This document shows, piece after piece, positions 15,906 through 63,583 of a DNA stretch of 64,000 bases. The position numbers and the translations under genes were made by a program. The DNA is from a virus. The notes beneath the pieces were generated by a model. The model had not been told where the DNA came from. It ran no database searches and saw only the letters and a list, made by a program, of their open reading frames with translations. The stretch's first letter is position 1; every line of letters starts with the position of its first letter. The DNA lies in the IMG/VR virus record IMGVR_UViG_3300018080_000001, positions 106,100 to 170,099 of that record. One strand, 5' to 3'.

Positions 15906-16700
15906 TTATTTTATCCCAAAATCCTTTATTATACTATTTATAATATCGCGCACAGCAGATTTCATATTGGTCTTAACCTTCGACCTTATTAAAGAAATTA
16001 CCTCGTCTGGAACAGATGAATTAGCCGGTAATATCTGCCTAAGCATTGTGTTTGCCTCTTCAGTGGCATCAATTAAACTATTTAAAAAAGACATTGTTGT
16101 ATGCTCAACCGCGCTTTTAATTGCGGATTCAGTTATTTTACTACTATTTTTTAATTTTAATAAATCTTGTCTAGTAGATATAGCGGATTGAGCTAAATCA
16201 AATGCCAATTTCATTTCTTGTATGCTCGGTTTTTTATTAGGATTTTTTTCCAACTCCTTTTTGGTTCGATCATTATATTCCATAAGACGCTGCTCTAAAT
16301 CACGAATCATGTCTCGAAGTTGATTAAATTTATCTAACTCTGTTATATAACCATCTGTTACAACGGCATCTGCCATAGCCTGCGTTGTTTCATCAAACGC
16401 GGCAGAACCACGCTCAACAGAAGTTGTTATACTGCGAGAAACCTCTAGCATCATTAAGTCCACTGTAGGAATATGTTGTTTAAAATGATTAGATAAATTT
16501 TGATGATTAAATTTCGGAAGCTGTTTTTCTCTAATAACTCCATTATTATAAACTTCTATCGAGTTATTTAACCAAGCCAAAACTTTAGTTTGAGACATTT
16601 TATCTTTTAATACTTTATTATGTACTTGTACCCAAAGATCTTTGTCTCGCTTAATTAATTTGCATAACTTGCATTTGTAATGTAACTTTGCTTTAGTCAT
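15906..16700 (-). CDS. Helical protein, possible terminase small subunit (264 aa)
   Basis: Starts with 'KLHYKCKLCKLIKRDKDLW', a CxxC-containing basic segment suited to DNA binding, then an HTH-like region ('SQTKVLAWLNNSIEVY') and long coiled helices to the C-terminus. Size, helical content and position a few genes upstream of the large terminase are compatible with a small terminase subunit, which recognises the packaging site; there is no decisive motif. Confidence 0.5.
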   Translation of the reverse strand: MTKAKLHYKCKLCKLIKRDKDLWVQVHNKVLKDKMSQTKVLAWLNNSIEVYNNGVIREKQLPKFNHQNLSNHFKQHIPTVDLMMLEVSRSITTSVERGSAAFDETTQAMADAVVTDGYITELDKFNQLRDMIRDLEQRLMEYNDRTKKELEKNPNKKPSIQEMKLAFDLAQSAISTRQDLLKLKNSSKITESAIKSAVEHTTMSFLNSLIDATEEANTMLRQILPANSSVPDEVISLIRSKVKTNMKSAVRDIINSIIKDFGIK

Positions 16701-25733: not shown

Positions 25734-25744
25734 GTTTCTTTATT

Positions 25745-27361: not shown

Positions 27362-27443
27362 ATAGTATACCCCTTTCTTTTTCCCTTTTACAGGAGAATA
27401 CTATAAAGGTTATACTAGTATATTCTGTATAGAAATTTTTAAA

Positions 27444-27818
27444 TTATTTCTCTATACGTTTAGTTTTATATTTATTATTATAGTTTTCTAGAGCTTTAAA
27501 CATTTTTTTATTACCTGGAGATTCTTTATATAAGTCTCCACCACTCTTTCTAAAAATTAAGGTTTCGCTTTCATTATTAATAGATATAATATATAATATA
27601 TCTTTTATTATTTTATATCTAAGTACTAACTGAGTTATGAATCCAATAGTGCAAATTGCAAAAACATAAACACAAGAAACTATAGAAATACTTAACTGAA
27701 TAGAATCTATATCTTTTCCAAAATATAGGACTAAAACTAATATAGTTGTTACTAATAATCCGGGAATTATCCATCCAAGATATGACCACTTCCATAGTGA
27801 TAAATAAGAATATTTCAT
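27444..27818 (-). CDS. Small two-TM protein with chimeric sequence (124 aa)
   Basis: Residues 1-~92 (two membrane segments, 'YLGWIIPGLLVTTILVLVL' and 'VFAICTIGFITQLVLRYKII') are nearly identical to the N-terminus of the gene at 29400. The last ~32 residues ('GGDLYKESPGNKKMFKALEN') match the C-terminus of the gene at 33486. It therefore looks like a recombination product of the two, formed during duplication of the tailspike units. Confidence 0.65.
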   Translation of the reverse strand: MKYSYLSLWKWSYLGWIIPGLLVTTILVLVLYFGKDIDSIQLSISIVSCVYVFAICTIGFITQLVLRYKIIKDILYIISINNESETLIFRKSGGDLYKESPGNKKMFKALENYNNKYKTKRIEK

Positions 27819-27826
27819 TTCTTATC

Positions 27827-29407: not shown

Positions 29408-30047
29408 TTTTTTCCCTTTCCTTCATTATTCGATGCTGTTTCTCAACATCCCACTTAGGATATGCGAAACTTAAAACAGCATGTTCCAATTCATGAAGTA
29501 ATAAGTTAAGCGTTTTATCTATATTTCCACCCCACTCTACTTCGCACCATCTTCCTTTTTGTATTCCGTAATGTCTAAATACTTTCCCAAATCTTTCAGT
29601 TTTTATTGTACCTGGTTTTTTGAACGTAACAAAAACGTGGGGTGAAAAATATTTTGTATTAGCTCTTGGAGCAACTTTTTTAAGTTTTTCAATATTATTA
29701 TTGATATTAGTTTTTATTCCTGGTACAGGGATCATAACTTTCCACAATCTTTCTAGATCCTCTATACCTTTACTCTTTCTAAAAATTAAGATTTCGCTTT
29801 CATTATTAATAGATATAGTATATAATATATCTTTTATTATTTTATATCTAAGTACTAATTGAGTTATGAATCCAATAGTGCAAATTGCAAAAATAGAACT
29901 ACAAGAAACTGTAGAAATAATTAACTGCGTAGCATCCAGATTTTTTCCAAAGCATAGGACTAAAACTAATATAGTTGTTACTAATAATCCTGGAATTATC
30001 CAACCAAGATATGCCCACTTCCACAAAGGAAAACAAGGATATTTCAT
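29400..30047 (-). CDS. Membrane-anchored HExxH protein (215 aa)
   Basis: Two N-terminal membrane segments (residues ~10-70, shared with the gene at 27444), a linker, then a soluble domain ending in 'LNLLLHELEHAVLSFAYPKW'. HELEH is a zincin-type HExxH motif in a helix, so a membrane-tethered metallopeptidase is plausible. Overlaps the start of tailspike copy 3 by 8 bp. The substrate is unknown. Confidence 0.6.
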   Translation of the reverse strand: MKYPCFPLWKWAYLGWIIPGLLVTTILVLVLCFGKNLDATQLIISTVSCSSIFAICTIGFITQLVLRYKIIKDILYTISINNESEILIFRKSKGIEDLERLWKVMIPVPGIKTNINNNIEKLKKVAPRANTKYFSPHVFVTFKKPGTIKTERFGKVFRHYGIQKGRWCEVEWGGNIDKTLNLLLHELEHAVLSFAYPKWDVEKQHRIMKEREKNV

Positions 30048-30055
30048 TTCTTCTC

Positions 30056-31636
30056 CTACTTATTTACTACAAAAGAACCTGCACTATCTGTAACAGAAAG
30101 ACCTGCTGCGGGGTATGCAACAGTAGTTCCAGAAATATCCCAATGTATATCTCCTAAAAGACCACCTAATGTTGTATCTCTTATTTGTACACTACTTATT
30201 ACTCCTATATGCATACCATATTTCGTTATATTAGCTGCTATACCCCCAATATCTGAAAAACGACATTTGCTTCTTATAGCATAAAAAGCACTTTTAACAG
30301 CATCTTGAATAAAAATATTTTGACAATGAAGAGAAGTACTTTTTACATAAATTACATCATCAAAACATCTTCCAAAATAACTTTCTGACAAATCTACGTT
30401 AGAATTATAACTTTCTAACCCTGAAGCTGTACAATGATATACATTTAGATATGATCCATTCAATGCACAAAAGCCTCCTATAACTGAAACATAATCTATC
30501 TCACAAGAACCTCGTGAAACTTCAAATGATCGTTTCCATGAACCAGGGGCCAAATCTGTTTCGGTGAAAATGGTACTTGTTATATAATTTACATATATCA
30601 TATTAGTTACTCTCATATCTGTATTTTTTATTTCATTTGGATATATTAAATTTCCTATATTTATTGTAGCTGTCCCTTCAACTGCATTCCAAACAGAATT
30701 AAATTTTACAGCGTTAAAATAGGAATTATTTTGATTTCCTGAAAATTTAAAACCATAGTAAGTAGATCCATCAATTTTAAAATAAATCCCAGTGACTCCA
30801 AAGCTTAAACCGTAAAAGGAAGGAAAACTTTCATCTCCTCTCGTTTCTACGTGGAAATCAACTCCATGATTTAATTCTAGTTTAACAGGAAGATCAACTA
30901 TTTCAAATGTATCTGTAGGCGCAAGAGGCATAGAAGTTAATCCAAGAGTTATTTTATCTGCATCATTAGATTGAATTGAATAATAACGACCAGAATTAGC
31001 TCCAGAAGTTGGTCTTAAGAAATAACCAACAAATTGATCTGTTGTCCAACTAGCTCCCGCTACATTAATATTATGAGCTACTGTAGTACCATCAGCTACA
31101 ATATTTGTCCAAGAAGTTGTTGTATAAGGGCCATATATAACCGTAGGGTCGCCTTGTCCTTGAATAGTTAACTGACCTCCTTTATGAATCTCATGAGTAA
31201 GATCATAAGGAAATTCAGAATATGTTCCTGCTGCGATTAAAACATTTACTTTATGCTCTATCTTTTTAGGAACTCTTGAAAAAGCATAAGTTATTGTTGC
31301 ATATGGACTATCTGCCGATCCATCTCCTGAATAATTATCTCCAGTAGTAGGATTAACATAAATATCCAAATCTTCTATTGTAGTATCTTTTCCAATAGAT
31401 CCGTCTGATACTACATCCCTGTATTTCAAACTCTCCACATCATCTGCGGATAATTGCTGAGAATCCAAATAACAAGATGCTTTTCCTTCTTCAACATAAT
31501 TGGATATTACAGTTAATAAAATTTCTTCAAACTGTATTTCATTTAATTCTAGACTATAGGAATCACGATGGGATATATTAAATCCAGGAAAAGAAAGAAT
31601 TGAATTTGTATTGTTTGTTATTATAATACTCTTCAT
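30056..31636 (-). CDS. Beta-helix tailspike-like protein, copy 4 of 5 (526 aa)
   Basis: Adapter 'SIIITNNTNSILSFPGFNI', then 'LKYRDVVSDGSIGKDTTIED' and a beta-helix entry ('HKVNVLIAAGTYSEFPYDLT'). Nearly the same length as copy 3, with strong similarity at both ends and a distinct central region. The stop is 8 bp from the membrane HExxH gene. Confidence 0.8.
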   Translation of the reverse strand: MKSIIITNNTNSILSFPGFNISHRDSYSLELNEIQFEEILLTVISNYVEEGKASCYLDSQQLSADDVESLKYRDVVSDGSIGKDTTIEDLDIYVNPTTGDNYSGDGSADSPYATITYAFSRVPKKIEHKVNVLIAAGTYSEFPYDLTHEIHKGGQLTIQGQGDPTVIYGPYTTTSWTNIVADGTTVAHNINVAGASWTTDQFVGYFLRPTSGANSGRYYSIQSNDADKITLGLTSMPLAPTDTFEIVDLPVKLELNHGVDFHVETRGDESFPSFYGLSFGVTGIYFKIDGSTYYGFKFSGNQNNSYFNAVKFNSVWNAVEGTATINIGNLIYPNEIKNTDMRVTNMIYVNYITSTIFTETDLAPGSWKRSFEVSRGSCEIDYVSVIGGFCALNGSYLNVYHCTASGLESYNSNVDLSESYFGRCFDDVIYVKSTSLHCQNIFIQDAVKSAFYAIRSKCRFSDIGGIAANITKYGMHIGVISSVQIRDTTLGGLLGDIHWDISGTTVAYPAAGLSVTDSAGSFVVNK

Positions 31637-31667
31637 TATTTATAACTCCTTATTTTTTTCTATTTAA

Positions 31668-31829
31668 TTAATCTAATTCTAATTTATCTATGCGCTCTTC
31701 CATTTCTTTTAACGTCTTCTTATCTATTTTTTCGTCTAAAGCCAAACCATAAAAATGTAATCCGTATTTCTGTATAAGAATTTTTTCATTTACTTTCAAA
31801 AATTCTTTCATTTTTTTTGAAATAGCCAT
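31668..31829 (-). CDS. Small helical protein (53 aa)
   Basis: ATG at 31829 behind AAGGAG. Sequence 'MAISKKMKEFLKVNEKILIQ' to 'LKEMEERIDKLELD' forms a helix with a short coil at the end. It fills the gap between tailspike copies 4 and 5. Confidence 0.5.
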   Translation of the reverse strand: MAISKKMKEFLKVNEKILIQKYGLHFYGLALDEKIDKKTLKEMEERIDKLELD

Positions 31830-31842
31830 AAAAATCTCCTTT

Positions 31843-33402
31843 TTAGTATCCGACTATTTGAGAACCGAGTGTATCGTTTACTTCGGCGTTGGCCGCTGGA
31901 TACGCTGTGTCTATTGCGCCACCGCTTAGCCATTTTATCGCCGTTGCCGCACCTCCAGCACCCACAAGAGTGCATGAGGAATTCTCGATAACCGCCCTGC
32001 TTCCCTGGCCCATCGCAATTGCATTCGTCACGTTAGCCGCAGTACCTTCCAGACCTTTAATCGTGACGCCACAAACACCAGGCCACAATTTAACACCGTA
32101 CTGTGCACTTTCTACAAACACAGCATCAACATTGGCGGAACCTACCATCGGCAATCTAACCGCTTGATTGTTGGTTTTTGCCTCAATATAAATTCCCGCT
32201 ACTCGTACACAACCAACAGACGCGTACGCATCAACACCATAGCCATTAGTCGCGTTAGCAATTGCACAATAACCAACCAGGCAATTCGAATACGCAACAT
32301 CAATACCTTTGTCGAACACAAAAAGTCTTGTAATGTCGCTGCTTCCGTAAACTGTTAGATAATCAGTGCCCGTCCCCTTTTTCATAATACAATTAGTATT
32401 ATAGTTACTAACAAGACCTGAATCATCTACAACATCCGTCGGTGAAGGATAATAGTACAACCCCATATCTGTAGTAGTGTCATGAAATTGTACAGTACCT
32501 GAAATAATAGATCCTGTCATATTAATACAACAATCCTGCACAACCAAGCGTTTACTAGAAAAATCTATATCCAGCCCGAACAATCCGTGGTTAGCAAAAT
32601 AAGTATTGCCTCCACCGCCAATTAAATTTTTAAATTGATCGGAAACAATGGTCACACCAGGCTCTACAACCTTAAAAGTTTCTCCCGCAGAAAGAGCGAT
32701 ATACGTATACTCAATTCTTAAAGAGGTAGTTGTATTCGAAACAATCGCGGCGACTTCACCTACTCTTGCACCACTCGTAAATTTAACATATTTTCCACGA
32801 TAGGCATTAGAAGTCAAACCACCACCAACAACAGGAATATCAGCCACGTTATTAGTCTGTATTACTGTTGGTCCTGCTACATCAATTGTCATTTCAGTGG
32901 ATGCATCGACTAAAGCGAGCGAACCATCAAAAGAGAGGAACCCAGCATCAATAAAAGAATGATCTATATTGGATGGCCATGCACTGTAAGTACCAGCGGC
33001 AATATGAATATGTACAACGTGTTTAATTTTAGTAGGAACATCCGCATATGCTCTGGTAATCGTACTATAAGGAGAACTGGAACTACCATCGCCTAAAACA
33101 TCAGCTCCCGTAGTAGCGTTAACATATATATCCATATCCGCAACAGTTTCATCTTTACCAATAGATCCGTCATTATATACATCTCTGTATTTTAACGTTA
33201 ATATTTCACTGGGAGAAAGCTCTACAGAATCTAAGTAACAAGATAGTTTAACATCAGTAACATAACCATAAATTATATTTAATAATTCCTCATCAAATTG
33301 AATTTCATTTAATTCTATATTGTAAGAACTATATTTTTCTATATAAAAATTAGGAAAGGATAATGTATTGCTAGATTTGTTTGTTAATGTTACAGTTTTC
33401 AT
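31843..33402 (-). CDS. Beta-helix tailspike-like protein, copy 5 of 5 (519 aa)
   Basis: The N-terminus is virtually identical to copy 2. 'LKYRDVYNDGSIGKDETVAD' and 'DIYVNATTGADVLGDGSSSS' follow. The C-terminal half is clearly more GC-rich than the other copies and its own adapter (plus-strand 31889-32330 is full of GCC/CGC), which suggests a body acquired from another source and joined to the resident adapter. Ends 'GAIDTAYPAANAEVNDTLGS', matching the end motif of copies 3 and 4. Confidence 0.8.
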   Translation of the reverse strand: MKTVTLTNKSSNTLSFPNFYIEKYSSYNIELNEIQFDEELLNIIYGYVTDVKLSCYLDSVELSPSEILTLKYRDVYNDGSIGKDETVADMDIYVNATTGADVLGDGSSSSPYSTITRAYADVPTKIKHVVHIHIAAGTYSAWPSNIDHSFIDAGFLSFDGSLALVDASTEMTIDVAGPTVIQTNNVADIPVVGGGLTSNAYRGKYVKFTSGARVGEVAAIVSNTTTSLRIEYTYIALSAGETFKVVEPGVTIVSDQFKNLIGGGGNTYFANHGLFGLDIDFSSKRLVVQDCCINMTGSIISGTVQFHDTTTDMGLYYYPSPTDVVDDSGLVSNYNTNCIMKKGTGTDYLTVYGSSDITRLFVFDKGIDVAYSNCLVGYCAIANATNGYGVDAYASVGCVRVAGIYIEAKTNNQAVRLPMVGSANVDAVFVESAQYGVKLWPGVCGVTIKGLEGTAANVTNAIAMGQGSRAVIENSSCTLVGAGGAATAIKWLSGGAIDTAYPAANAEVNDTLGSQIVGY

Positions 33403-47523: not shown

Positions 47524-47709
47524 CTATTCATAATACACAGGTCCCTTTATATCTCGAACAGAAAAATAAACATTACGTTTTATAGCAGCTAAACCAACAC
47601 GCATATTAGGGTCTAAGCATAAAACTATATCATATCCAGTAATATTCGAAGCAACATGTAAATTATAATCAAATATACTATCATCCGTTTTTTTACCCAA
47701 AATCTTCAT
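47524..47709 (-). CDS. MKxLGK-family small protein (61 aa), first member
   Basis: Start at 47709 (MKILGKKTDDSIF); the frame upstream runs through the tRNA-like gene and is not coding. It carries the six-residue leader common to ~40 genes in this region, then a beta-rich body ('LHVASNITGYDIVLCLDPNM'). It marks the far end of the family array. Confidence 0.6.
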   Translation of the reverse strand: MKILGKKTDDSIFDYNLHVASNITGYDIVLCLDPNMRVGLAAIKRNVYFSVRDIKGPVYYE

Positions 47710-47716
47710 GTTTACT

Positions 47717-47796
47717 TGGGGGAGATGGCAGGATTCGAACCTGCATGTTCCCCTTTGGGTGAGTTTTCCACGGTGGCCACCTACTCTACATCTCCC
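47717..47796 (-). tRNA. tRNA-like gene, non-canonical centre, identity unresolved
   Basis: The 3' half is textbook: T arm GCAGG-TTCGAAT-CCTGC, acceptor GGAGATG/CATCTCC, then C and an encoded CCA. A G before position 1 could pair with that C, as in tRNA-His. Between U8-A9 and the T arm, however, the 42 nt do not fold into normal D and anticodon arms; they contain the palindrome GGTGGCCACC and a small hairpin ACCC-AAA-GGGG. A Ser(GGA)-like loop can be read but is unpaired. Either a highly divergent tRNA or a tRNA-like RNA. Confidence 0.6.
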
Positions 47797-47998
47797 ATAA
47801 ATTATGAACAAAGCTTATTTTATCATATACTTCTTTCTGTACTTTAAAAATAGCCTTGAACTGAATAAAAAGTCCTAATCTATTAGCAATACCTCTATCT
47901 ACTTTATTTCTATCCGTTATAGAAATACGATAATTAGGATTATTAGCATAAAGATTAGGACTTTCCAGATATTTACAGTACTTCCCTAACTTCCGCAT
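47786..47998 (-). CDS. MKxLGK-family small protein (70 aa)
   Basis: Start at 47998 (MRKLGKYCKYLESPN). The last ~11 nt overlap the 5' end of the tRNA-like gene. Body rich in Arg/Asn/Ile ('RISITDRNKVDRGIANRLGL'). Leader variant Met-Arg-Lys-Leu-Gly-Lys. Confidence 0.55.
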   Translation of the reverse strand: MRKLGKYCKYLESPNLYANNPNYRISITDRNKVDRGIANRLGLFIQFKAIFKVQKEVYDKISFVHNLWEM

Positions 47999-48000
47999 TA

Positions 48001-48312
48001 TTAGTCGGCAACTTGTTGCCAACCACGGGGGAGAAACTCTTGCTGCCGTACAACCTTGTAGTTTCCCACGGGAAGGTCAATAGGCGCGTGCTCATCGTGC
48101 AGCAGCTTAGACTGCTTAAGGCACTCAATATACATCGAAGCTCCCGCCATCATGATAGCGGCCTGTGCACCCGCAGAAAGCCTATGCGTATGACCAGTGA
48201 CTTCACCCCTGGCAACGATGTTGGTAGTCTGCTTTTGAGCATCCTCCGGAATGTCTGCAATCTCCATGATAAGAATGTCGCCCTGCCTACGTTGAATCAG
48301 ATTCTTTTCCAT
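48001..48312 (-). CDS. Conserved-type hypothetical protein (103 aa), GC-rich
   Basis: 'RRQGDILIMEIADIPEDAQK', 'GEVTGHTHRL' and 'IDLPVGNYKVVRQQEFLP' form a compact beta domain that I recall as a recurrent small protein in bacterial genomes, often beside DUF6745-type genes like the one at 51861. The gene is distinctly more GC-rich than its neighbours, consistent with recent transfer. The His in TGHTHR might bind metal. Function unknown. Confidence 0.65.
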   Translation of the reverse strand: MEKNLIQRRQGDILIMEIADIPEDAQKQTTNIVARGEVTGHTHRLSAGAQAAIMMAGASMYIECLKQSKLLHDEHAPIDLPVGNYKVVRQQEFLPRGWQQVAD

Positions 48313-48356
48313 TTTGCATTTCTCCTTTTTTGTTTTTTGTAAATGCCAATTATAAA

Positions 48357-48590
48357 TTACTTTACATACTTTTTCAATTTTCTTGCATCTTGAGCCACGA
48401 AAAAAGTTACTGCGCCAATAGTTATATAAGCTTCGTTAATAGTTTCTATTTTATAACGCAACTTAAGTATTTTATACGAAGAAACTGGTAACTCAATCTG
48501 AGAATATGAATAAATAGTATCTCCCAATATTAATAGATTACTATCACAAACTATGAAATCTTTCGATATTTTTTTTCCTAAATACTTCAT
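48357..48590 (-). CDS. MKxLGK-family small protein (77 aa)
   Basis: Leader MKYLGK, then 'KISKDFIVCDSNLLILGDTI' and 'SQIELPVSSYKILKLRYKIE', a beta-rich body ending in a basic helix. Not repeat-type. Confidence 0.6.
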   Translation of the reverse strand: MKYLGKKISKDFIVCDSNLLILGDTIYSYSQIELPVSSYKILKLRYKIETINEAYITIGAVTFFVAQDARKLKKYVK

Positions 48591-48639
48591 ACCTTATAAT
48601 TTATACCTAGTATATAAAAAATATTTCATTAAATTAGTA

Positions 48640-48803
48640 TTATATGGAACGCTTGATAACTTCATGAACAGGTCTTCTAACAAAAATACGAACTGCTATT
48701 TATACTCTTTGATATACGCGCATTCTAAGCTCATATATACATAGATAGACGAACGTTGTATAATATCATAACTAAAATCTTGTTGTTTTCCTATGAGTTT
48801 CAT
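48640..48803 (-). pseudogene. Frameshifted MKxLGK-family member
   Basis: ATG at 48803 directly follows the upstream stop. MKLIGKQQDFSYDIIQRSSI... stops at 48696-48698 after 35 codons; shifting frame restores an ending 'AVRIFVRRPVHEVIKRSI' to 48640, which resembles other family C-termini. A 1-2 base indel would explain it. The 35-residue product might still be made. Confidence 0.55.
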
Positions 48804-48983
48804 TCACAGCCCCTTAATTGAATGCCAAATCAAAATTCTAATAGTATTATTTACCAAGGTAACAACTGAAGTATTGATCATATCCGATACTGAATAACTA
48901 ATGGGACTACAAACTGAGTACCAGTCTAAGTCCCAAGCAAGCTCTCTAACTGAATATTCGACCGATCTTCCTAATGTTTTCAT
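48804..48983 (-). CDS. MKxLGK-family small protein with degenerate SV repeats (59 aa)
   Basis: Leader MKTLGR, then spaced Ser-Val units ('SVEYSVRELAWDLDWYSV') that have drifted from the tetrapeptide pattern. The ATG overlaps the upstream stop (ATGA). Confidence 0.6.
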   Translation of the reverse strand: MKTLGRSVEYSVRELAWDLDWYSVCSPISYSVSDMINTSVVTLVNNTIRILIWHSIKGL

Positions 48984-49153
48984 TTTATAGCATCTACGAT
49001 TACACGTAAAAATAAATTAGAAACAAGATTTCTAACTAAATCTCTAATAAAGTACCAAACTAAATTGTCAACTGAATTCCAAACTGAATTGTTAGTTAAG
49101 TCCCAAACTAAATACCAAACTAACTTTTTAACAGGTTTTCCCAATGTTTTCAT
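48980..49153 (-). CDS. MKxLGK-family tetrapeptide-repeat protein (57 aa)
   Basis: MKTLGKPV followed by Leu/Ser-Val units at 4-residue spacing ('KKLVWYLVWDLTNNSVWNSV'), ending 'VIVDAIK'. Overlaps both neighbours (TAATG and ATGA). Confidence 0.65.
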   Translation of the reverse strand: MKTLGKPVKKLVWYLVWDLTNNSVWNSVDNLVWYFIRDLVRNLVSNLFLRVIVDAIK

Positions 49154-49380
49154 TATAATAGATCTTCATATATAAAATTTTCAACAGACATCCGCATTTC
49201 TCCCGTTATATAAAATTCTAAGGAATGACCGAAAATACAAAACCTTTCTGCTATAAAAACCCATACACTATAAGTACTTATGATACTTAGTACTTTTTTG
49301 TATATAAGACCAGTTTCGGGGTGGACCCTATCATTTTCTTTCCCTAAATCAATACTGATAGTTTTTCCCAAAATCTTCAT
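49153..49380 (-). CDS. MKxLGK-family small protein (75 aa)
   Basis: Leader MKILGK; body 'IISTYSVWVFIAERFCIFGH' is hydrophobic and the end 'SVENFIYEDLL' shares 'FIYED' with the member at 61385, which defines a small subfamily. Confidence 0.6.
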   Translation of the reverse strand: MKILGKTISIDLGKENDRVHPETGLIYKKVLSIISTYSVWVFIAERFCIFGHSLEFYITGEMRMSVENFIYEDLL

Positions 49381-49388
49381 TATCTTAG

Positions 49389-49574
49389 TTACAATGTAAG
49401 AGCAATTCTAATATAGTGATCAAGAAAATCTCCGACCTTATAAAATGCGGCGTATTTAATAAAATACCACAAGTCGTTATCTATATTATTAAATAATTTA
49501 CTGTCAAAAAGATCTCGTCCATTATATAGATAATTTTCCAAAGTTTTAGTGCTGGATTTACCTAAATATTTCAT
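49389..49574 (-). CDS. MKxLGK-family small protein (61 aa)
   Basis: Leader MKYLGK, then 'SSTKTLENYLYNGRDLFDSK' and an aromatic-rich helix ('NDLWYFIKYAAFYKVGDFLD'). No repeat. Confidence 0.6.
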   Translation of the reverse strand: MKYLGKSSTKTLENYLYNGRDLFDSKLFNNIDNDLWYFIKYAAFYKVGDFLDHYIRIALTL

Positions 49575-49822
49575 TTCCTCACCTTATATTTATAAATAGG
49601 AATAGAGTTTTTTATATTTCTTTTTACTATTACTTTCAAAAAAGGGATGTCTATAGAACTTCTAATCAGCATACTCGGAGTAGTATCGTGTATAATTTTA
49701 TTAATCATAGTATTTAAATAATCAAAAATGTCGATATTCACAACTTTACTAACAGCATCTCTAGCCATTACACACCGGTTAAAACCAAACATAAAACTTA
49801 CATTTTTATCTATATTTTTCAT
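49571..49822 (-). CDS. MKxLGK-family small protein, IPIY-ending subfamily (83 aa)
   Basis: Leader variant MKNIDK. Ends 'SSIDIPFLKVIVKRNIKNSI' followed by PIYKYK, a C-terminal pattern (Ser-Ile/Val-x-x-Pro ... Arg-x-x-Ile ... Pro-Ile-Tyr-Glu/Lys) shared with the members at 49819, 56742 and 57265. ATGA overlaps on both sides. Confidence 0.6.
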   Translation of the reverse strand: MKNIDKNVSFMFGFNRCVMARDAVSKVVNIDIFDYLNTMINKIIHDTTPSMLIRSSIDIPFLKVIVKRNIKNSIPIYKYKVRK

Positions 49823-50076
49823 GATACAAACTCATAATAAGGAACCATGTGGATTATATTTCTCTGTACTACTTTTTTATAAATAGGAATCTCTATTGAA
49901 GGCACAATTATATGCCAAATAAAAGGATCTAACTTAACAGTGTGTATATAAATAGAAAGATTCTCTTCTATGAATACATAGAGCAAATAACTAACAATTT
50001 CTCGCATTTTTGTATTAACAAATGGAAAATTATAATCCTCAACCAATTCTTCTACCGGTTTACCTATTGAGTTCAT
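49819..50076 (-). CDS. MKxLGK-family small protein, IPIY-ending subfamily (85 aa)
   Basis: Leader MNSIGK. C-terminus 'PSIEIPIYKKVVQRNIIHMV' then PYYEF parallels the preceding gene closely, so the two are probably tandem duplicates that diverged. Confidence 0.6.
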   Translation of the reverse strand: MNSIGKPVEELVEDYNFPFVNTKMREIVSYLLYVFIEENLSIYIHTVKLDPFIWHIIVPSIEIPIYKKVVQRNIIHMVPYYEFVS

Positions 50077-50243
50077 TTTATAACCCTAACTAAAAACCTA
50101 ACTGAATCCCAAACTGAATCCCAAACTGAATCCCAAACTGAATCGATAACTGAATTCCTAACTGAATCAATAACTGAATCCCAAACTGAATTCCTAACTG
50201 AATTCCTAACTGAAGTACTAACTTGTTTTCCTATATTTTTCAT
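50073..50243 (-). CDS. MKxLGK-family tetrapeptide-repeat protein (56 aa)
   Basis: MKNIGK followed by eleven consecutive 4-residue units of the form Ser-Val-Trp/Arg/Ile-Asp/Asn ('SVRNSVRNSVWDSVIDSV'), ending VRVIK. ATG at 50243; the TGA overlaps the next ATG. Confidence 0.7.
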   Translation of the reverse strand: MKNIGKQVSTSVRNSVRNSVWDSVIDSVRNSVIDSVWDSVWDSVWDSVRFLVRVIK

Positions 50244-50244
50244 T

Positions 50245-50475
50245 TCATTTACATCCTGTTTTTATAATATCCCCACATATTACCCGGTTTAAAAATTTTG
50301 TATCGTGGTATGACTCAAGCATACTTGTAATAACACGCTCTAGCACTATATTAGAAACAAAATCATAAACAGTAATGTTGAAAAGATAGGGATAAGCAAG
50401 CGGACCTATTCTAAATGCTATGGCATCAAGACTTGCAAAATATTCTGTATGTTCTGGATTACCTAATATTTTCAT
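50245..50475 (-). CDS. MKxLGK-family small protein, HTxY subfamily (76 aa)
   Basis: MKILGN, then 'EHTEYFASLDAIAFRIGPLA' and 'YDFVSNIVLERV'. The member at 57035 has the same order ('GHTKYISSFDAVF', 'PDYVSNIITGKV'), so these are paralogues placed 7 kb apart. Confidence 0.65.
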   Translation of the reverse strand: MKILGNPEHTEYFASLDAIAFRIGPLAYPYLFNITVYDFVSNIVLERVITSMLESYHDTKFLNRVICGDIIKTGCK

Positions 50476-57519: not shown

Positions 57520-58158
57520 TTACTTGGCTGGAAAATAATCTTTTATAGTATTTTTCAAGATCTTATATAACTGATCTGATATATTAAATCGCTTTTTGTT
57601 ATATTCTAGGCTTTTGTCTATATCCCCGTCCTTCATTCTCTCTACAGCAGCTCGCCAATCACACAACATCTCCATCAAATCCACGAGATTCATTTCATCA
57701 ATTCCCGTAGTAAAATGTTCCGGATGATGTCTATTGCCGAGATAATGATGGACAAGGGCAACATTCATAAACTCTAAATTCTTATTATACTCTTCACCCC
57801 CGTACTCACTATTAGCCAGCTTCTTTGTGTACTCCGCGAATACAGATACTTCAGGTTGCGATAGTTTACTTTTATCGTGTCTAAGAGAACGGTGTAGTAT
57901 ATCGGTAATTAATATACTTAGTAAATTCTGTACACGATTTATATGTTCCCAAGTTTCTGCGTTTGTTGCTTTCTCTTCTATAGTTAGTTCCTTATCCGAT
58001 TCATCTTTAAATTCTTTTTTCTCTGCTTCATTCATATCGCTCTCCTCATAAATTTCGCCAAAGAAACCTTCGTAACACGGAGCATTATAACAAATAAGTT
58101 TCTTAGTGTATAAATCTTTTTCCGCTGTCATCTTTTTACATCGGGGACAATATTCCAT
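57520..58158 (-). CDS. Zinc ribbon fused to DUF5662 domain (212 aa)
   Basis: Residues 1-35 are a zinc ribbon ('MEYCPRCKKMTAEKDL', 'CYNAPCYEGF') like that of the gene at 15674. Residues ~65-205 fit DUF5662: 'HINRVQNLLSILITDILHRS', 'RHDKSKLSQPEVSVFAEYTK', 'LVHHYLGNRHHPEHF', 'LVDLMEMLCDWRAAVERM' and 'RFNISDQL'. The many conserved His/Asp suggest an HD-like metal-dependent hydrolase; the activity is not established. Common in large phages. Confidence 0.8.
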   Translation of the reverse strand: MEYCPRCKKMTAEKDLYTKKLICYNAPCYEGFFGEIYEESDMNEAEKKEFKDESDKELTIEEKATNAETWEHINRVQNLLSILITDILHRSLRHDKSKLSQPEVSVFAEYTKKLANSEYGGEEYNKNLEFMNVALVHHYLGNRHHPEHFTTGIDEMNLVDLMEMLCDWRAAVERMKDGDIDKSLEYNKKRFNISDQLYKILKNTIKDYFPAK

Positions 58159-58160
58159 TT

Positions 58161-58358
58161 TTATTCCTTTATACTTTTTAAAATTAAATTAGTGTGCATT
58201 TTAATTAAATGAACGTGCACGCCCATTGTTCTGGGTGATGCCTTTACACTAATTTTCAGCATACCGCTGTAATGTATATTATTATCCAAAAAATAAAAAT
58301 ATAATTTATGAAATTTATCTTTCATTTTCTCGTCTATATGTTTTCCCACGGGTATCAT
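58161..58358 (-). CDS. MKxLGK-family small protein (65 aa)
   Basis: Leader variant MIPVGK. Body 'KFHKLYFYFLDNNIHYSGML' then a His-rich strand ('MGVHVHLIKMHTNLILKSI'). Abuts the DUF5662 gene. Confidence 0.55.
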   Translation of the reverse strand: MIPVGKHIDEKMKDKFHKLYFYFLDNNIHYSGMLKISVKASPRTMGVHVHLIKMHTNLILKSIKE

Positions 58359-58380
58359 TTGATATAATTTCTAGTTTCTA

Positions 58381-58497
58381 TTAATTCACATACAAAATTA
58401 GACATTTCAAATATACGTAAAAATTATTTCTACTAATAAGCTCTCTATAAGACCACGCTGCACTAACAAGCTAAATTCTTTCACCCATCGGTTTCAT
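58381..58497 (-). pseudogene. MKxLGK-family member with early amber stop
   Basis: ATG at 58497 opens MKPMGERI, then TAG at 58471-58473, then an open in-frame remainder 'LVSAAWSYRELISRNNFYVY...' to TAA at 58381. A single base change inactivated it, unless an amber suppressor exists. It overlaps the 3' end of the next gene, as intact members do. Confidence 0.6.
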
Positions 58498-58690
58498 TAT
58501 TAATATTTCTCCGGACTACAGATTGAATAAGAATATCAAGCATAAAATCTAAGCTGTCAAAAGCTATACCATTGGGAGATTCTGTACAAAGTAAAAAAGA
58601 ATTAATCGTTTTCTTCAAATCCTGTCGCACGTGATAACTTGTAGGGTATAGAACCCTATCCCTGTATAATAATTTTCCTAAATATTTCAT
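58481..58690 (-). CDS. MKxLGK-family small protein, NET-ending subfamily (69 aa)
   Basis: MKYLGK; ends 'SLDFMLDILIQSVVRRNINN' then ETDG, parallel to the end of the gene at 58880. Confidence 0.6.
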   Translation of the reverse strand: MKYLGKLLYRDRVLYPTSYHVRQDLKKTINSFLLCTESPNGIAFDSLDFMLDILIQSVVRRNINNETDG

Positions 58691-58704
58691 CCTAAATAAC
58701 CAAT

Positions 58705-58896
58705 TTATAAAAAGTCAGATCTAATAAAGATTCTAATACTTTCGATATCATGTTTCATATATTCTATAGCCTTACGCACAGGATTCCATGCCCAATCATT
58801 AACAGTAAAAAGTAAATTATATTTAACAGAATTAGAAACATTTGCATAAGACATCATTTTTATATTGTCGTTAATATTTTTACCCTTGTGTTTCAT
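58705..58896 (-). CDS. MKxLGK-family small protein (63 aa)
   Basis: MKHKGK, then 'NINDNIKMMSYANVSNSVKY' and a C-terminus 'HDIESIRIFIRSDFL'. Overlaps the upstream gene by 17 bp. Confidence 0.6.
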   Translation of the reverse strand: MKHKGKNINDNIKMMSYANVSNSVKYNLLFTVNDWAWNPVRKAIEYMKHDIESIRIFIRSDFL

Positions 58897-59119
58897 TTCT
58901 TATACTCCGCAAAACAACAGTCCTAACCCATAAATCTAATATAGAATCTAACGAATTCATACTTGCACTCAAAACATAGTCATGATTTAAAATTCTTTGT
59001 GAAACATAAAGTCTTAATTTTTGATTAGCACACGAATTCACTACGTATGAAATCTTAATATTAAGATGGTCACTAGCACAAGTATTGTTGTTAATTATAT
59101 TTTTTCCGGAATTCTTCAT
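58880..59119 (-). CDS. MKxLGK-family small protein, NET-ending subfamily (79 aa)
   Basis: Start at 59119 (MKNSGKNIINN), overlapping the upstream stop (TAATG). 'SLDSILDLWVRTVVLRSIRN' then ETQG is the paralogue of the end of the gene at 58481. Confidence 0.6.
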   Translation of the reverse strand: MKNSGKNIINNNTCASDHLNIKISYVVNSCANQKLRLYVSQRILNHDYVLSASMNSLDSILDLWVRTVVLRSIRNETQG

Positions 59120-59316
59120 TATAAACCCGCGACTAAACATTCCTCCACAGAAGATATAACAATTTCTACAGGTAATTCAATAGAAAGTAACATTGCATGA
59201 TATACATAGTCACGAACAGAATAAATAGAAAACTTTACGTTAATACCTACGTTGGTCCATATAAAAGAGTTTTCTTCTTCTATTACATCAGATCTATAGT
59301 TTCCTAAGTACTTCAT
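59119..59316 (-). CDS. MKxLGK-family small protein (65 aa)
   Basis: MKYLGN; 'INVKFSIYSVRDYVYHAMLL' and 'SIELPVEIVISSVEECL'. The LP-(I/V)-E element recurs in the member at 61627. Confidence 0.6.
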   Translation of the reverse strand: MKYLGNYRSDVIEEENSFIWTNVGINVKFSIYSVRDYVYHAMLLSIELPVEIVISSVEECLVAGL

Positions 59317-59525
59317 TAAAATTTCCTCGTCTCTTGTGTATAGTTAGTTATTTGTTGTATAAAAAAAGAATAAACATTAGATATAAAAGTATTATTAGCA
59401 TTTAAAACTTCAAAAATATAAATACATAGGCGAGGATTACAAAAAGAATTATAGGCATGAACAAAAGACATGAGTTCAAAACTTTCTATCAGTTTAGATC
59501 TGACATTTTTACCCTGTAGTTTCAT
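59316..59525 (-). CDS. MKxLGK-family small protein (69 aa)
   Basis: MKLQGK; helical and aromatic body ('ESFELMSFVHAYNSFCNPRL'). 1-bp overlap with the next gene. Confidence 0.6.
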   Translation of the reverse strand: MKLQGKNVRSKLIESFELMSFVHAYNSFCNPRLCIYIFEVLNANNTFISNVYSFFIQQITNYTQETRKF

Positions 59526-59686
59526 GCTAGACCTGCTCTTAAATTAAGAAGTAACGGATTGCTAATATTGACATCAAAAGTATACTCAAGCCAAATCCAA
59601 CCCAGAGTAAGATACATGTTATTAAGTAAATCTACGTAATTCTGTTGTCTACAAAGTACTTCAATATTATTTCCTATGTATTTCAT
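59522..59686 (-). CDS. MKxLGK-family small protein (54 aa)
   Basis: ATG at 59686, TGA overlapping the next ATG. MKYIGNNIEVLCRQQNY, then an aromatic stretch ('LTLGWIWLEYTFDV'). Confidence 0.6.
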   Translation of the reverse strand: MKYIGNNIEVLCRQQNYVDLLNNMYLTLGWIWLEYTFDVNISNPLLLNLRAGLA

Positions 59687-60069
59687 TTAATACTGTGAAA
59701 AATATCTTCAACAGATTTTTTTGTGTTTTCTAATAACTCGTTCTTCTTTTTAAAATACGATGCAACATTATATCTGTTATTCCATAAGAATGCTTCATAT
59801 GTATAAAGACTATTACACATGCATCCAACTACATGATCCTCCGCAAAATGTATAACACCGACAGAACAGCTTCCAACATCTATACAAGCATCAGGATCAT
59901 CTTTGGCTCTTTTTTCAAGATCCTCTAATTCTCCGTCATCAAAATTAAATCCGCCATCTGACGAAAAATAAGTACGGCCACAAACACACGTCCAACGGCA
60001 TGATCCGTGACTACAAAACGCATCAACAAATTCATCACTGGGTTTTTTATCAGAATAGATAGGTAACAT
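59683..60069 (-). CDS. Cys-rich hypothetical protein (128 aa), not of the family
   Basis: 'FCSHGSCRWTCVCGRTYFSS' with six or more cysteines and an acidic middle ('NFDDGELEDLEKRAKDDPDA'), then 'GCMCNSLYTYEAFLWNNRYN'. Looks like an uncharacterised zinc protein recurrent in phages. No leader. Confidence 0.55.
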   Translation of the reverse strand: MLPIYSDKKPSDEFVDAFCSHGSCRWTCVCGRTYFSSDGGFNFDDGELEDLEKRAKDDPDACIDVGSCSVGVIHFAEDHVVGCMCNSLYTYEAFLWNNRYNVASYFKKKNELLENTKKSVEDIFHSIK

Positions 60070-60102
60070 CGTTTGACCTTTCTTTACACGTTATATACGC
60101 AT

Positions 60103-60285
60103 TTAATTTAGCATAGAATTTTTTATCACAAAATCTACATTAAAAAAATATACTTCGGTAATCAAGCAATCTACTTCACCCCAGACTTCAAATTCACACA
60201 GTACATCGTTATGAAATAGATTACTTACACGGCCTATATACTCATATGCCACTGCTTTTACTACGTTATTTCCCAGGGTTTTCAT
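60103..60285 (-). CDS. MKxLGK-family small protein (60 aa)
   Basis: MKTLGN; 'VVKAVAYEYIGRVSNLFHND' and 'VWGEVDCLITEVYFFNVDFV'. Stands alone between two non-family genes. Confidence 0.6.
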   Translation of the reverse strand: MKTLGNNVVKAVAYEYIGRVSNLFHNDVLCEFEVWGEVDCLITEVYFFNVDFVIKNSMLN

Positions 60286-60316
60286 CCTGATTTCATTATA
60301 TTCTTATCTATATTAT

Positions 60317-61036
60317 TTAATCTATCCGCAACAAACTTTCCAATTCATCAATTTCTTCTCGTGTCATACCTCCCGGATTTTCTTTACTCTTCTCTCCTTT
60401 TGCAGACTCTTTAAATAGTTCTAAAATCCTAATCCTATAATCATCACCCCTGTCCGTCCAATCATTAAATAATTTTATTGCCTCAGCCGGTCTCATAAAA
60501 TAACCTTTTCTCGTATACTTGCAACAGCGGAGAAGAGAACTAATAGGGCAATGTATATTCTTTAAACGTAAAATCTTTTTCCTTTCATCTGCTTCAAATT
60601 GCTCATCTACCAAAACTTCCGTAGAAGATATAATCGCAGCCCTAGCAATAGTAAAATCAAAATTATCTAGTATCTCTTCCACAGAACCAAGAGTAACTAC
60701 ACTCCCTTCAGTAACAGGTTTAATAATCTGAGGAATTGGAAGATAGTCTAACTGATCTTTTTTATCTTCTTTAGGTTGTAAGGTTATAGATACTTTATTT
60801 TCATGTCGTTTTTCAAAACCCATAGACGTTAAAGCTTTAAAAACTTTTTCTGAAGCTCCTTCAGTCCTGGGGAATATATCTACGTCACCAGCAAGGACTA
60901 GTCTTTGCATAGGAAGCGGAGATGCACAATATCTTGCGTAACCTCCACAAATAACAGCATTTGATTCCTGACAAATTTTGAAAAAATCTTTTATTTCGTA
61001 AAAACCTCTTTTTAATTCTATTGTTTTATAACTCAT
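60317..61036 (-). CDS. Nucleotidyltransferase (239 aa)
   Basis: Start at 61036 (MSYKTIELKRG) after AGGT. 'AVICGGYARYCAS' and 'LAGDVDIFPRT' are the GG and DxD motifs of the DNA polymerase beta-like nucleotidyltransferase fold, as in poly(A)/CCA-adding enzymes and related phage proteins. A C-terminal helical part includes 'CKYTRKGYFMRPAEAIKLFN'. It sits next to a tRNA-like element, so tRNA 3'-end addition is an attractive but unproven role. Confidence 0.7.
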   Translation of the reverse strand: MSYKTIELKRGFYEIKDFFKICQESNAVICGGYARYCASPLPMQRLVLAGDVDIFPRTEGASEKVFKALTSMGFEKRHENKVSITLQPKEDKKDQLDYLPIPQIIKPVTEGSVVTLGSVEEILDNFDFTIARAAIISSTEVLVDEQFEADERKKILRLKNIHCPISSLLRCCKYTRKGYFMRPAEAIKLFNDWTDRGDDYRIRILELFKESAKGEKSKENPGGMTREEIDELESLLRID

Positions 61037-61070
61037 TTTAATACCTATCTTTATTTGCTTAAACAAAATA

Positions 61071-61138
61071 GGGCTACCGGATTTATCGAAGATCCTACAC
61101 TGGTGATGAGGTGTATCAGCAAAATGCTGAGATAGCCC
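61071..61138 (-). ncRNA. tRNA-like cloverleaf, possibly a reduced tRNA
   Basis: On the minus strand GGGCTAT/GTAGCCC close a 7-bp stem (one G-U). Inside are a D-like arm CAGC-ATTTT-GCTG, a central arm TACAC-(10 nt including CTCATCA)-GTGTA, and a T-like arm GGATC-TTCGATA-AATCC. The total of 68 nt is short for a tRNA: the variable loop is missing and the central loop is 10 nt. Anticodon CAT is possible. CCA not encoded. Confidence 0.45.
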
Positions 61139-61384
61139 TTGTGATCGTGAATCCTACTCATACCCAATTGGAATAAAGATATTTGTTTTTATAGGATAGA
61201 ACTTCTAGAGACACTGAAGTTTTCACTGAACAAAAAACCCAATCACCAGGAATATAATGGTGAAATTTTAGACACGAGACAGTGCTAGACTGCCTGTTGT
61301 ATGGTATGTTGTTCATTCAGCACTCCAAAAATCCTAAGACACCATTGTCCCACAATCACATAGATAAATTACTTTTGGTTATTA
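61139..61384. other. Non-coding, hairpin-rich stretch
   Basis: No plausible gene. Inverted repeats include AACTTC...GAAGTT (near 61205), CACC...GGTG (near 61240) and TAGGAT/ATCCTA pairing ~61335 with ~61198, which would enclose the region on the minus strand. It may belong to one transcript with the tRNA-like element downstream. Confidence 0.35.
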
Positions 61385-61630
61385 TTAGGTTTTTGTTCTA
61401 AACGAAGAAATATCTTCATATATAAAATAGTATAGCATATTTAATGTATGATCCGGTATGATATTCATATCTATGAAGTTTTTAATAGACCAATATATTC
61501 TTGCTCCAATTCCCTCTTGAACCTGCGAATAAAAGACATCTTGATAGGCTAGCCAATCAGTATACTTACGCAAACACATCGGAGATTTATGATGCTTTTC
61601 AGCTCTAACTGATTTTCCTAATGTTTTCAT
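61385..61630 (-). CDS. MKxLGK-family small protein, FIYED subfamily (81 aa)
   Basis: Start at 61630 (MKTLGKSVRAEKHHK). 'RKYTDWLAYQDVFYSQVQEG' and the end 'LNMLYYFIYEDISSF', which shares FIYED with the gene at 49153. Confidence 0.6.
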   Translation of the reverse strand: MKTLGKSVRAEKHHKSPMCLRKYTDWLAYQDVFYSQVQEGIGARIYWSIKNFIDMNIIPDHTLNMLYYFIYEDISSFRTKT

Positions 61631-61857
61631 AATAAACTCCATCTTAACCAGACTTCAATTGGCAATTTCACATGCACATAAACAGCGCCTTTAACAGAAT
61701 TATCGTTTTCAATTCTAAAAGGTTGAAAAGTCATTTGTACATATACATAAAATTTAGGAACGGTTCCGACTTTATTAAAATTAGGTAAAGCCCAAGATTC
61801 CTTCAAACGTGCCTGAAATGCAAATATAGAAATAGCTTTGTTGCCTATGATTTTCAT
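61627..61857 (-). CDS. MKxLGK-family small protein (76 aa)
   Basis: MKIIGN; 'FQARLKESWALPNFNKVGTV' and 'GAVYVHVKLPIEVWLRWSL'. ATGA overlap on both sides. Confidence 0.6.
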   Translation of the reverse strand: MKIIGNKAISIFAFQARLKESWALPNFNKVGTVPKFYVYVQMTFQPFRIENDNSVKGAVYVHVKLPIEVWLRWSLL

Positions 61858-62069
61858 TCTAATTTTTCCTTTATTGAAACTCTAACTAGAACTCTAAGTA
61901 AATCCATAATTAAAAACCTGATTGAACCACTAACTGAACCCCAAAATGAGCCCCAAAGTGAAATTGAAGTACTAAGTGAATAACTAACTGAATAATTAAA
62001 TAGTCTCTCGACTAAATCTCCAACTAACTTTACAACTAAATTGCTAACTGGTTTTCCTAATGTTTTCAT
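61854..62069 (-). CDS. MKxLGK-family degenerate tetrapeptide-repeat protein (71 aa)
   Basis: MKTLGKPV, then 'SNLVVKLVGDLVERLFNYSV' and 'SLWGSFWGSVSGSIRFLI': the 4-residue rhythm is kept but Ser-Val is often replaced by Leu-Val, Phe or Ile, so it is an older copy. Confidence 0.65.
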   Translation of the reverse strand: MKTLGKPVSNLVVKLVGDLVERLFNYSVSYSLSTSISLWGSFWGSVSGSIRFLIMDLLRVLVRVSIKEKLE

Positions 62070-62308
62070 TTTATAGACCTAATTGAAATCCAAACTGAAG
62101 TTCTAACTGAATTCCTAACTGAATTACTAACTAAAACCCAAACTGAATTCCTAACTAAATTACTAACTAAATGCCTAATTGAATTACCAACTAAAGACCT
62201 AATTGAATTACCAACTAAAGACCTAATTGAAGTACTATCGGAAATAATAATGTAAGCATTAATAGAATCATCAACTAAACCCGCAACACTCTTACCTATA
62301 GCTTTCAT
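62066..62308 (-). CDS. MKxLGK-family tetrapeptide-repeat protein (80 aa)
   Basis: MKAIGKSV; a non-repeat start ('AGLVDDSINAYIIISDSTSI') then ~12 units with an 8-residue duplication ('RSLVGNSIRSLVGNSIR'). Confidence 0.65.
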   Translation of the reverse strand: MKAIGKSVAGLVDDSINAYIIISDSTSIRSLVGNSIRSLVGNSIRHLVSNLVRNSVWVLVSNSVRNSVRTSVWISIRSIK

Positions 62309-62469
62309 TGTTCTATACTTTCTTTAACTAAAGCCCAAACTGAATTCCTAACTAAATCAATAACTGAATAACTAACTGAATATCTAACTGAATATCTAAC
62401 TGAATATCTAACTGAATCCCAAACTGAATCACTAACTGAATATCCAACACTTTTACCTATAATTTTCAT
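62305..62469 (-). CDS. MKxLGK-family tetrapeptide-repeat protein (54 aa)
   Basis: MKIIGKSV followed by ~11 units ('YSVSDSVWDSVRYSVRYSVR') ending KESIEQ, a C-terminus shared with the genes at 62466 and 62651. ATG at 62469. Confidence 0.7.
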   Translation of the reverse strand: MKIIGKSVGYSVSDSVWDSVRYSVRYSVRYSVSYSVIDLVRNSVWALVKESIEQ

Positions 62470-62654
62470 TGTTCTGTAATTTCTTTAATTGAATGGATAA
62501 TTAAATTCCAAACTGCATTACTAAGTGAATTCCATACTGAACCTCTAACTGAATTACTACGTAAATACTCAACTGAAACCCCGACTGAATACCTAGCTGA
62601 AGCACTAACCGCGTACCCAACTAAAACCTTAACACTCGTACCTGTAGCTTTCAT
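62466..62654 (-). CDS. MKxLGK-family degenerate repeat protein (62 aa)
   Basis: MKATGTSV, then drifted units ('VSASARYSVGVSVEYLRSNS'), ending 'IKEITEQ'. Confidence 0.65.
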   Translation of the reverse strand: MKATGTSVKVLVGYAVSASARYSVGVSVEYLRSNSVRGSVWNSLSNAVWNLIIHSIKEITEQ

Positions 62655-62899
62655 TGTTCTATGCTTTCTTTAATTGAATTATAAAATAAAGCCCTAACTG
62701 AATTCCAAACTGAATTCCTAACTGAATTCCAAACTGAATTCCAAACTGAATACAAAACTGAATTATTAACTGAATTCCAAACTGAATCACTAACTAAAGG
62801 CCTAACTAAAGGCCTAACTGAATTCCTAACTGAATACAAAACTGAATCCCAAACTGGATTACTAACTGAAGCTTTAACAGATTCTCCTAATATTTTCAT
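62651..62899 (-). CDS. MKxLGK-family tetrapeptide-repeat protein (82 aa)
   Basis: MKILGESVKAS start identical over 20 residues to the gene at 51248. ~17 units ('NSVLYSVWNSVWNSVRNSVW'), ending KESIEQ. First gene transcribed in the whole array. Confidence 0.7.
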   Translation of the reverse strand: MKILGESVKASVSNPVWDSVLYSVRNSVRPLVRPLVSDSVWNSVNNSVLYSVWNSVWNSVRNSVWNSVRALFYNSIKESIEQ

Positions 62900-63022: not shown

Positions 63023-63583
63023 TTAGGTACCAGTTGGGAAAATCTCTCCGGTGATATGCGCGTCCATAAGATGTCCGGCACCAGCTGTAGTATCTGCCGT
63101 AGTGCATTTTACATACAAAGTAGAATCTGCACCAATCGGGTCTAGAAGACCCGTGACAGATACACCGAAAGTATCATTTAAGTCTTTCATGTTGGTTACG
63201 GTGGTAGCCGTGAGAATCTGTGTACCACCGGCTGAAGTTCCTACTGTAATTTGTGCATCGCCTGTAGCACCGGCACCGCCCACAGCCTCAAGGTGAAACT
63301 CAATATACGTGGGTTTAAACTGATTGCCAGAGCTACCGCCAATGGCCGTGGACTGCTCGTCATTCAGAGTGTCAATAGCCACGGCGGACACCAAAACAAT
63401 CTCCTCCTTGGCCAACTCTGCGGTAGCAGACGCCACATCTGCATGGTCTGAACCACTACCTGTTCTGTGTGTATCCCCCAGTACTACATTGGCGTGGTCT
63501 GTACCATCGCTAGACCTGTGTGTGGTAAGCGCTACGGCCTCCGTACTGTCCACTACTTTTGTTGGACTAAACCTGATTGCCAT
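63023..63583 (-). CDS. Probable virion protein (186 aa)
   Basis: AAGGAGAGAAC precedes the ATG. First half has two 'DHANVVLGDTHRTGSGSDHA'-type turns common in fibre proteins. From ~residue 65, 'SAVAIDTLNDEQSTAIGG' to 'DSTLYVKCTTADTTAGAGHL' is a beta-rich domain shared with the gene to the right. GC-rich like other structural genes here. Likely a particle decoration protein. Confidence 0.65.
   Translation of the reverse strand: MAIRFSPTKVVDSTEAVALTTHRSSDGTDHANVVLGDTHRTGSGSDHADVASATAELAKEEIVLVSAVAIDTLNDEQSTAIGGSSGNQFKPTYIEFHLEAVGGAGATGDAQITVGTSAGGTQILTATTVTNMKDLNDTFGVSVTGLLDPIGADSTLYVKCTTADTTAGAGHLMDAHITGEIFPTGT

Follow-up and report, generated by a model that had tools for sequence, protein, structure and literature searches.

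Why does a virus carry dozens of small neighbouring genes whose products seem to share nothing beyond their first few residues? We addressed this question in a window of 64,000 nt, corresponding to positions 106,100-170,099 of the 170,099-bp virus record IMGVR_UViG_3300018080_000001. An earlier note on this DNA described about forty small genes between window positions 47524 and 62899, largely overlapping head-to-tail and beginning with variants of MK-x-L/I-G-K/N, hereafter the leader. We find that leader and bodies belong to one degenerate four-residue repeat, and that the same repeat lies inside proteins of the DUF6745 family in other phages and in bacteria. Positions are those of the window unless the record is named.

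The leader genes form one locus on a circular genome

The genes hold up to closer inspection. We counted 39 leader genes in the window and 60 in the whole record, all on the minus strand. The strict pattern MKx[LIVAT]G[KNER] matches the minus strand of the record 39 times and the plus strand never, far above the chance level estimated from 30 Markov-2 resamplings (mean 0.33, maximum 2). Among leader-gene neighbors no more than 60 bp apart, 25 overlaps are of exactly 4 nt (ATGA) and 4 are of 1 nt (TAATG). The end of the record repeats its first 123 bp, so the genome is circular, with a length of 169,976 bp. The 21 further leader genes found outside the window (record positions 1,300-16,394) therefore belong to the same locus as those of the window, and most leader genes fall into a single stretch of about 24 kb across the circular join. 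The array thus runs on past position 62,899, where the earlier note had placed its boundary.

The leader is conserved at the amino acid level. Its third codon positions vary, with A-ending codons somewhat in excess, and because of this variation we rejected a purely DNA-level or Shine-Dalgarno element despite the over-use of A-ending codons.

Leader and bodies share one four-residue register

The genes had been thought to have only a six-residue leader in common, followed by bodies of at least five unrelated groups. BLAST does divide the bodies, into one 20-member tetrapeptide group, one group of 4, four pairs and many singletons. Consecutive xxSV units are found in 18 genes. The first residue of these units (x1) is rich in W/R/G, with TGG (28), AGT (18) and AGG (13) as codons, and the second (x2) is rich in D/N, with 39 D, 26 N and 18 Y. 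A canonical member (50627-50833) reads in fours MKTL GKPV RNSV RNSV RNSV WGSV.

We then asked whether V/I/L recur at regular spacing in the 43 bodies not placed in the tetrapeptide group and obtained z scores against shuffled sequences of 10.3, 7.1 and 5.1 at lags 4, 8 and 12. At lags 3 and 7, where an ordinary amphipathic helix would produce an excess, the signal is instead depleted. Lag-4 periodicity is individually significant in 16 of the 43 bodies (p<0.05), and after removal of these 16 the z scores are still 4.5, 3.8, 2.2 and 2.5 at lags 4, 8, 12 and 16. Other proteins of the same phage (n=168) show no such periodicity (z near 0), and 40 control draws from them gave a highest summed z of 4.0. 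Degenerate examples, written in fours, are MKTS GNLI KYDI ESIR GHVF NTII (record position 2662) and MKTL GKNV LRRI QYDI SGEV RERI (52841).

The leader residues L4 and V/I8 are in phase with the tetrads of the body. Leader and body are therefore one repeat, of which the leader is the first two units: MKxL-GKxV is, as the statistics show, the start of a degenerate xxSV tetrapeptide protein. DNA identity at a spacing of 12 nt is 0.66 in canonical bodies and only 0.33 in non-canonical ones, against a background of 0.30. The V/I/L register persists where DNA identity is almost at background, indicating that the protein register outlives the DNA repeat. Taken together, the roughly 60 unrelated-looking mini-genes are very probably worn variants of a single tetrapeptide-repeat family, although some bodies, for example those at 59522 and 48357, have no periodicity of their own and count against this conclusion. 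The mini-proteins matched no curated family, sequence and fold searches of the PDB gave no significant match, and a DNA pattern combining the leader with three in-phase V codons returned chance matches only.

The repeat tract is found within DUF6745 proteins

Searches with the canonical member, and then with a member from its first match, returned 15, 77 and 14 loci. In 32 distinct loci, from phages and bacteria, the SV tract lies between the N and C parts of a DUF6745 protein. These fused proteins have the same tetrad as the window genes (SV, then W/R/G, then D/A/N), with an internal tract of SV/SL/QL. The same domain is found next to the mini-genes: two DUF6745 (PF20530) genes lie amid the window array on the same strand, at 51861-52793 (Pfam E 3.1e-50) and, with a shorter C part, at 54502-55212 (E 3.1e-25). 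Both align with their fused relatives along both flanks and lack only the SV tract.

A profile of the tract-less proteins identified DUF6745 in the record of the window phage and in 12 other array records. Where it is found in an array record, DUF6745 never carries the tract, and it often adjoins the array on the same strand; in locus L040, as in the window, it directly precedes a run of canonical mini-genes. Stand-alone tract genes are absent from the 20 fused-DUF6745 records that we searched whole. Compared with the fused form, the tract of the array phages is detached, multiplied to between 3 and about 60 genes, more varied and, in the window, largely degenerate. A gene pair that is fused in some genomes and split in others usually counts as evidence of functional association, and the DUF6745 pattern would ordinarily be read in this way. 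From these comparisons we consider it probable, though well short of certain, that the mini-proteins work together with DUF6745.

In the PDB the predicted DUF6745 fold finds no significant counterpart, and in a viral library its matches are confined to DUF6745-like or uncharacterized phage proteins. The open-access literature yielded no paper on either DUF6745 or arrays of this kind. The same SV tract is also carried by a second scaffold, HIxLLKEWA [SV tract] GAYIGSFF .. LWxxGLVPSFDGKxWRLHSG, which belongs to no Pfam family (loci L044, L048, L062, L069, L072-L075, L078-L082, L086, L092, L113, L136 and others). Locus L082 holds three tandem copies of this scaffold.

Unrelated phages carry arrays with leaders of their own

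Stand-alone tetrapeptide genes form arrays or small clusters on 13 other distinct phage contigs, each with its own leader. Examples are L040 (about 39 genes, leader M[KI]LGKSIKDKV, end SVPKIK), L043 (31 genes, leader MNLENVxxKI, end PIREERKRG), L037 (23 genes, end RDYFEQK) and L036 together with L083 (about 20 genes, leader MTLKDSV, end IKSHDT). L099 has 12 genes. The overlap between neighbors is constant in L036 (11 nt) and in L099 (17 nt), so that one DNA word codes for both trailer and leader. A common element, [LI]GK[SP][VI], is found in the leaders of L039, L040 and the window. Although the leaders differ, their hydrophobic positions keep step with the tetrad V in nearly every array.

The terminase of the window phage had no match in the 5 array records tested, which may be incomplete. 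Among viral contigs, a terminase search recovered this phage and no other (99.998% over 61,770 bp, a match that leaves out the array), and virus Rctr197k, which the terminase marks as the closest relative with a name, contains no such mini-genes. A tblastn search of phage records with the repeat protein gave no match, a negative that carries no weight because of the low-complexity filter.

Array units vary at two positions and array genes swap ends

In most phages one codon each for S and V dominates the units almost completely, although the choice differs from phage to phage; in L037, for example, TCT is used in 216 of 217 units and GTA in 208 of 217. The variable residues of the array units are W/R/G/S/E at one position and D/N/Y/S at the other. 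In the fused tracts, variation is almost confined to the first base of x1 (W/R/G) and to x2, mostly D/A. The ratio of nonsynonymous to synonymous change (pN/pS) is 2.4-4.8 in five arrays and 1.0-1.1 in the window phage and L043, the latter values counting against the explanation proposed below; all are indicative only, because repeat units are copies of each other and not independent. With this limit, the data support diversification of x1 and x2 under selection in most arrays while S and V stay fixed.

The mini-gene at 62651-62899 is a chimera of two other members, its first 85 nt being 93% identical to 51248-51442 and its last 53 nt 91% identical to record positions 3958-4230. This supports an origin of new members by duplication and end-swapping recombination. 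Diversity-generating retroelements are likewise a means by which phages diversify proteins, but they depart from the present case in that no reverse transcriptase (PF00078) was detected in any of 7 records (the window phage and six array records), while positive controls were detected. We therefore rejected such an element as the source of the variation.

A candidate variable module of a DUF6745 system and its alternatives

The closest described repeat is that of gp54 of mycobacteriophage Tweety, a tetrapeptide repeat of the same class, with two fixed and two variable residues (the third G/W/Q, the fourth S/Y) encoded by 12-bp DNA repeats that vary at first and second codon positions (PMC2884959). 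It also offers the sole experimental precedent that we found: the copy number of its tetrapeptides is reported to decide whether the prophage defence formed by Phrann gp29/gp30 is overcome (PMC9262239). Unlike the arrays, gp54 is a single gene with AA in place of SV, its flanking domains are not DUF6745 and it has no array. The statement in the earlier note that no family of this kind had been described thus holds for the array form as far as the open-access literature goes, but not for the repeat class, known from gp54 and from within DUF6745. Its suggestion of a set of small effectors against host defences is compatible with a diversified, DUF6745-linked repertoire in many phages and with the gp54 precedent.

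We propose that the genes encode stand-alone mini-proteins, each of about 10-20 four-residue units with V/I/L as fourth residue and xxSV as the canonical form, which would correspond to the variable tract held inside DUF6745 elsewhere. Comparison with the fused loci indicates that, here and in about a dozen unrelated phages, the tract became detached from DUF6745 and was copied into a neighbouring head-to-tail series of genes. In this model the DUF6745 core would stay constant, and the mini-proteins would serve as exchangeable variable parts, either binding the core or taking the place of its tract. They may recognize different targets or block them; defence proteins of the host or of rival prophages are the likeliest candidates, with Tweety gp54 as the model. 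We judge the case for a DUF6745 system whose variable module has been split off, multiplied and diversified to be evenly balanced, and the assignment of a counter-defence purpose, drawn from analogy, to be tentative.

Several observations weigh against this proposal. The fused loci were retrieved through their tract, so that its presence in them is by design. Four records with tract genes (G005, G012, G013 and G015, possibly fragments) yielded no DUF6745, and in a fifth (G011) the domain matched only weakly and in part. DUF6745 is also able to occur by itself, as in Microcystis phage LMM01, whose DUF6745 lacks the tract and in which no array was detected. No Pfam family, DUF6745 included, was found in Tweety gp54.

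An alternative, to which the solitary DUF6745 of LMM01 lends support, is that the mini-proteins act alone, for instance in taking over the host or by self-assembling into helical rods, and that they lie beside DUF6745 only because both belong to one accessory region and the tract has a common ancestry. The presence of the tract in the second scaffold, unrelated to DUF6745 by Pfam, and as an AA form in gp54 implies that it can work outside DUF6745, and other accessory genes (a DNA methylase, SLOG and DUF5662) lie scattered through the array. AlphaFold2 also models the canonical mini-protein as one long confident helix (predicted local distance difference test, pLDDT, 86; predicted template modelling score 0.44). 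We do not trust this helix as a fold, since in the fused DUF6745 protein the tract is predicted at a pLDDT near 33 between confident N and C parts (about 90). Against independent action, which we regard as rather unlikely, stands the finding that arrays in unrelated phages are time and again accompanied by tract-less DUF6745 and never by the fused form. A selfish in-frame 12-bp minisatellite, with leaders as the edges of duplication and ribosome binding and with functionless products, would account for tracts that are 12-bp DNA repeats of homogeneous codons and for the single DNA word of trailer and leader in L036 and L099. However, the pattern of SV, W/R/G and D/N is spelled by different codons in different phages and persists where 12-nt identity has fallen almost to background, and nonsynonymous change exceeds synonymous change in most arrays, making this explanation improbable.

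Two further readings concern the virion. Small repeat subunits of fibres or decoration could be suspected from a probable virion or tail gene just upstream (63023-63583, so assigned from its sequence, with no Pfam match). The array nevertheless lies among accessory genes, at a distance from both the terminase and the fibre-like genes that the window contains, and DUF6745 matches no solved structure, so that a structural role is if anything slightly more doubtful than a minisatellite. The earlier note had compared the leader to the T4 capsid-targeting sequence of internal head proteins, likewise a short conserved N-terminus on several small proteins, and N-terminal conservation is indeed strong. 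Here, by contrast, the leader is part of the repeat, with hydrophobic positions that run on into related bodies; other array phages have different leaders on the same type of body; no cleavage motif is common to the leaders, position 6 being K or N in most of them, and at a possible cleavage point most carry no acidic residue; and the genes sit among accessory genes. A tag for virion targeting or for recognition by a processing protease is accordingly the least credible of these explanations, and very improbable.

Gene content of the window array

All array genes listed here lie on the minus strand. Besides the chimera (MKILGESV), the SV-tetrapeptide genes are MKATGTSV (62466-62654), MKIIGKSV (62305-62469), MKAIGKSV (62066-62308), MKILGKPV (51439-51669), MKILGESV (51248-51442), MKTLGKPV (51057-51251, 50830-51060 and 50627-50833, the last being the query that retrieved the arrays of other phages), MKSLGKPV (50472-50630) and MKNIGKQV (50073-50243). 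Decaying forms are MKTLGKPV (61854-62069 and 48980-49153) and MKTLGRSV (48804-48983). Degenerate tetrads are found in MKTLGKSV (61385-61630, lag-4 p 0.004), MKYLGNYR (59119-59316, p 0.018), MKHKGKNI (58705-58896, p 0.026), MKYLGKLL (58481-58690, p 0.034), MKYLGKSK (56240-56464, p 0.014), MKILGNPE (50245-50475, p 0.044) and MKYLGKSS (49389-49574, p 0.002), and tetrads are visible in MKTLGKNV (52841-53029, p 0.052), just upstream of DUF6745.

The other leader genes are MKIIGNKA (61627-61857), MKTLGNNV (60103-60285), MKYIGNNI (59522-59686), MKLQGKNV (59316-59525), MKNSGKNI (58880-59119, paired with 58481-58690), MIPVGKHI (58161-58358), MKAVGKCT (57265-57510), MKSLGKTG (57035-57265, paired with 50245-50475), MKSLGYND (56461-56745), MKPTGYST (54143-54427), MNSIGKPV (49819-50076), MKILGKTI (49153-49380), MKYLGKKI (48357-48590), MRKLGKYC (47786-47998) and MKILGKKT (47524-47709), with two short ones, MKDTGYNF (54051-54146, 31 aa) and MKLIGKQQ (48696-48803, 35 aa). 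Two members have weak leaders: MKSLVSSE (56742-57038), which ends in IPIYE, and MKNIDKNV (49571-49822), whose tetrads are visible by eye.

Accessory genes within the array encode an N6/N4 DNA methylase (53253-53987), a SLOG-family YAcAr protein (55884-56222) and a DUF5662 protein (57520-58158). A tRNA (Rfam RF00005, 35.7 bits; missed by ARAGORN) lies between two leader genes at 47720-47795 on the minus strand; it overlaps the end of the leader gene at 47786-47998 by 10 bp and is possibly degenerate.

Other repeated elements are present in this genome. Three consecutive proteins at record positions 8415-9473 (locus L009) share another N-terminal block (MKAKGISDAGLKRVAKIIKGQE, MKARGISDEGLKRVANVVKAQE and MKLKGLSTEGIEKLAKIITAQG), which is a real candidate for an N-terminal tag. 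A frame with a long SLSV tetrapeptide-like repeat, of about 12 nt per unit, lies outside the array near record position 61039 on the plus strand. Five tandem tail-fibre-like paralogues of about 520-540 aa, of the MSKTITLINSTSSFLSFPNF type, occupy 24150-33402 on the minus strand and are interspersed with a small membrane-protein-like gene present in two copies.

Implications

About 60 genes built on one repeat, and the recurrence of this layout next to a single partner gene in roughly twelve unrelated phages, suggest that diversity is strongly selected in an interaction not yet described. It is possible, if somewhat short of an even chance, that many phage lineages have turned one variable-loop protein into a constant DUF6745 core and a library of dozens of exchangeable recognition modules, and have done so without a reverse transcriptase. 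If true, this would be a combinatorial recognition repertoire encoded as a genomic library of mini-proteins. DUF6745, a widespread family without known function or solved relatives, gains a candidate partner. More generally, orphan-looking small phage genes can be worn-down repeats, recognizable by their register and not by sequence similarity.

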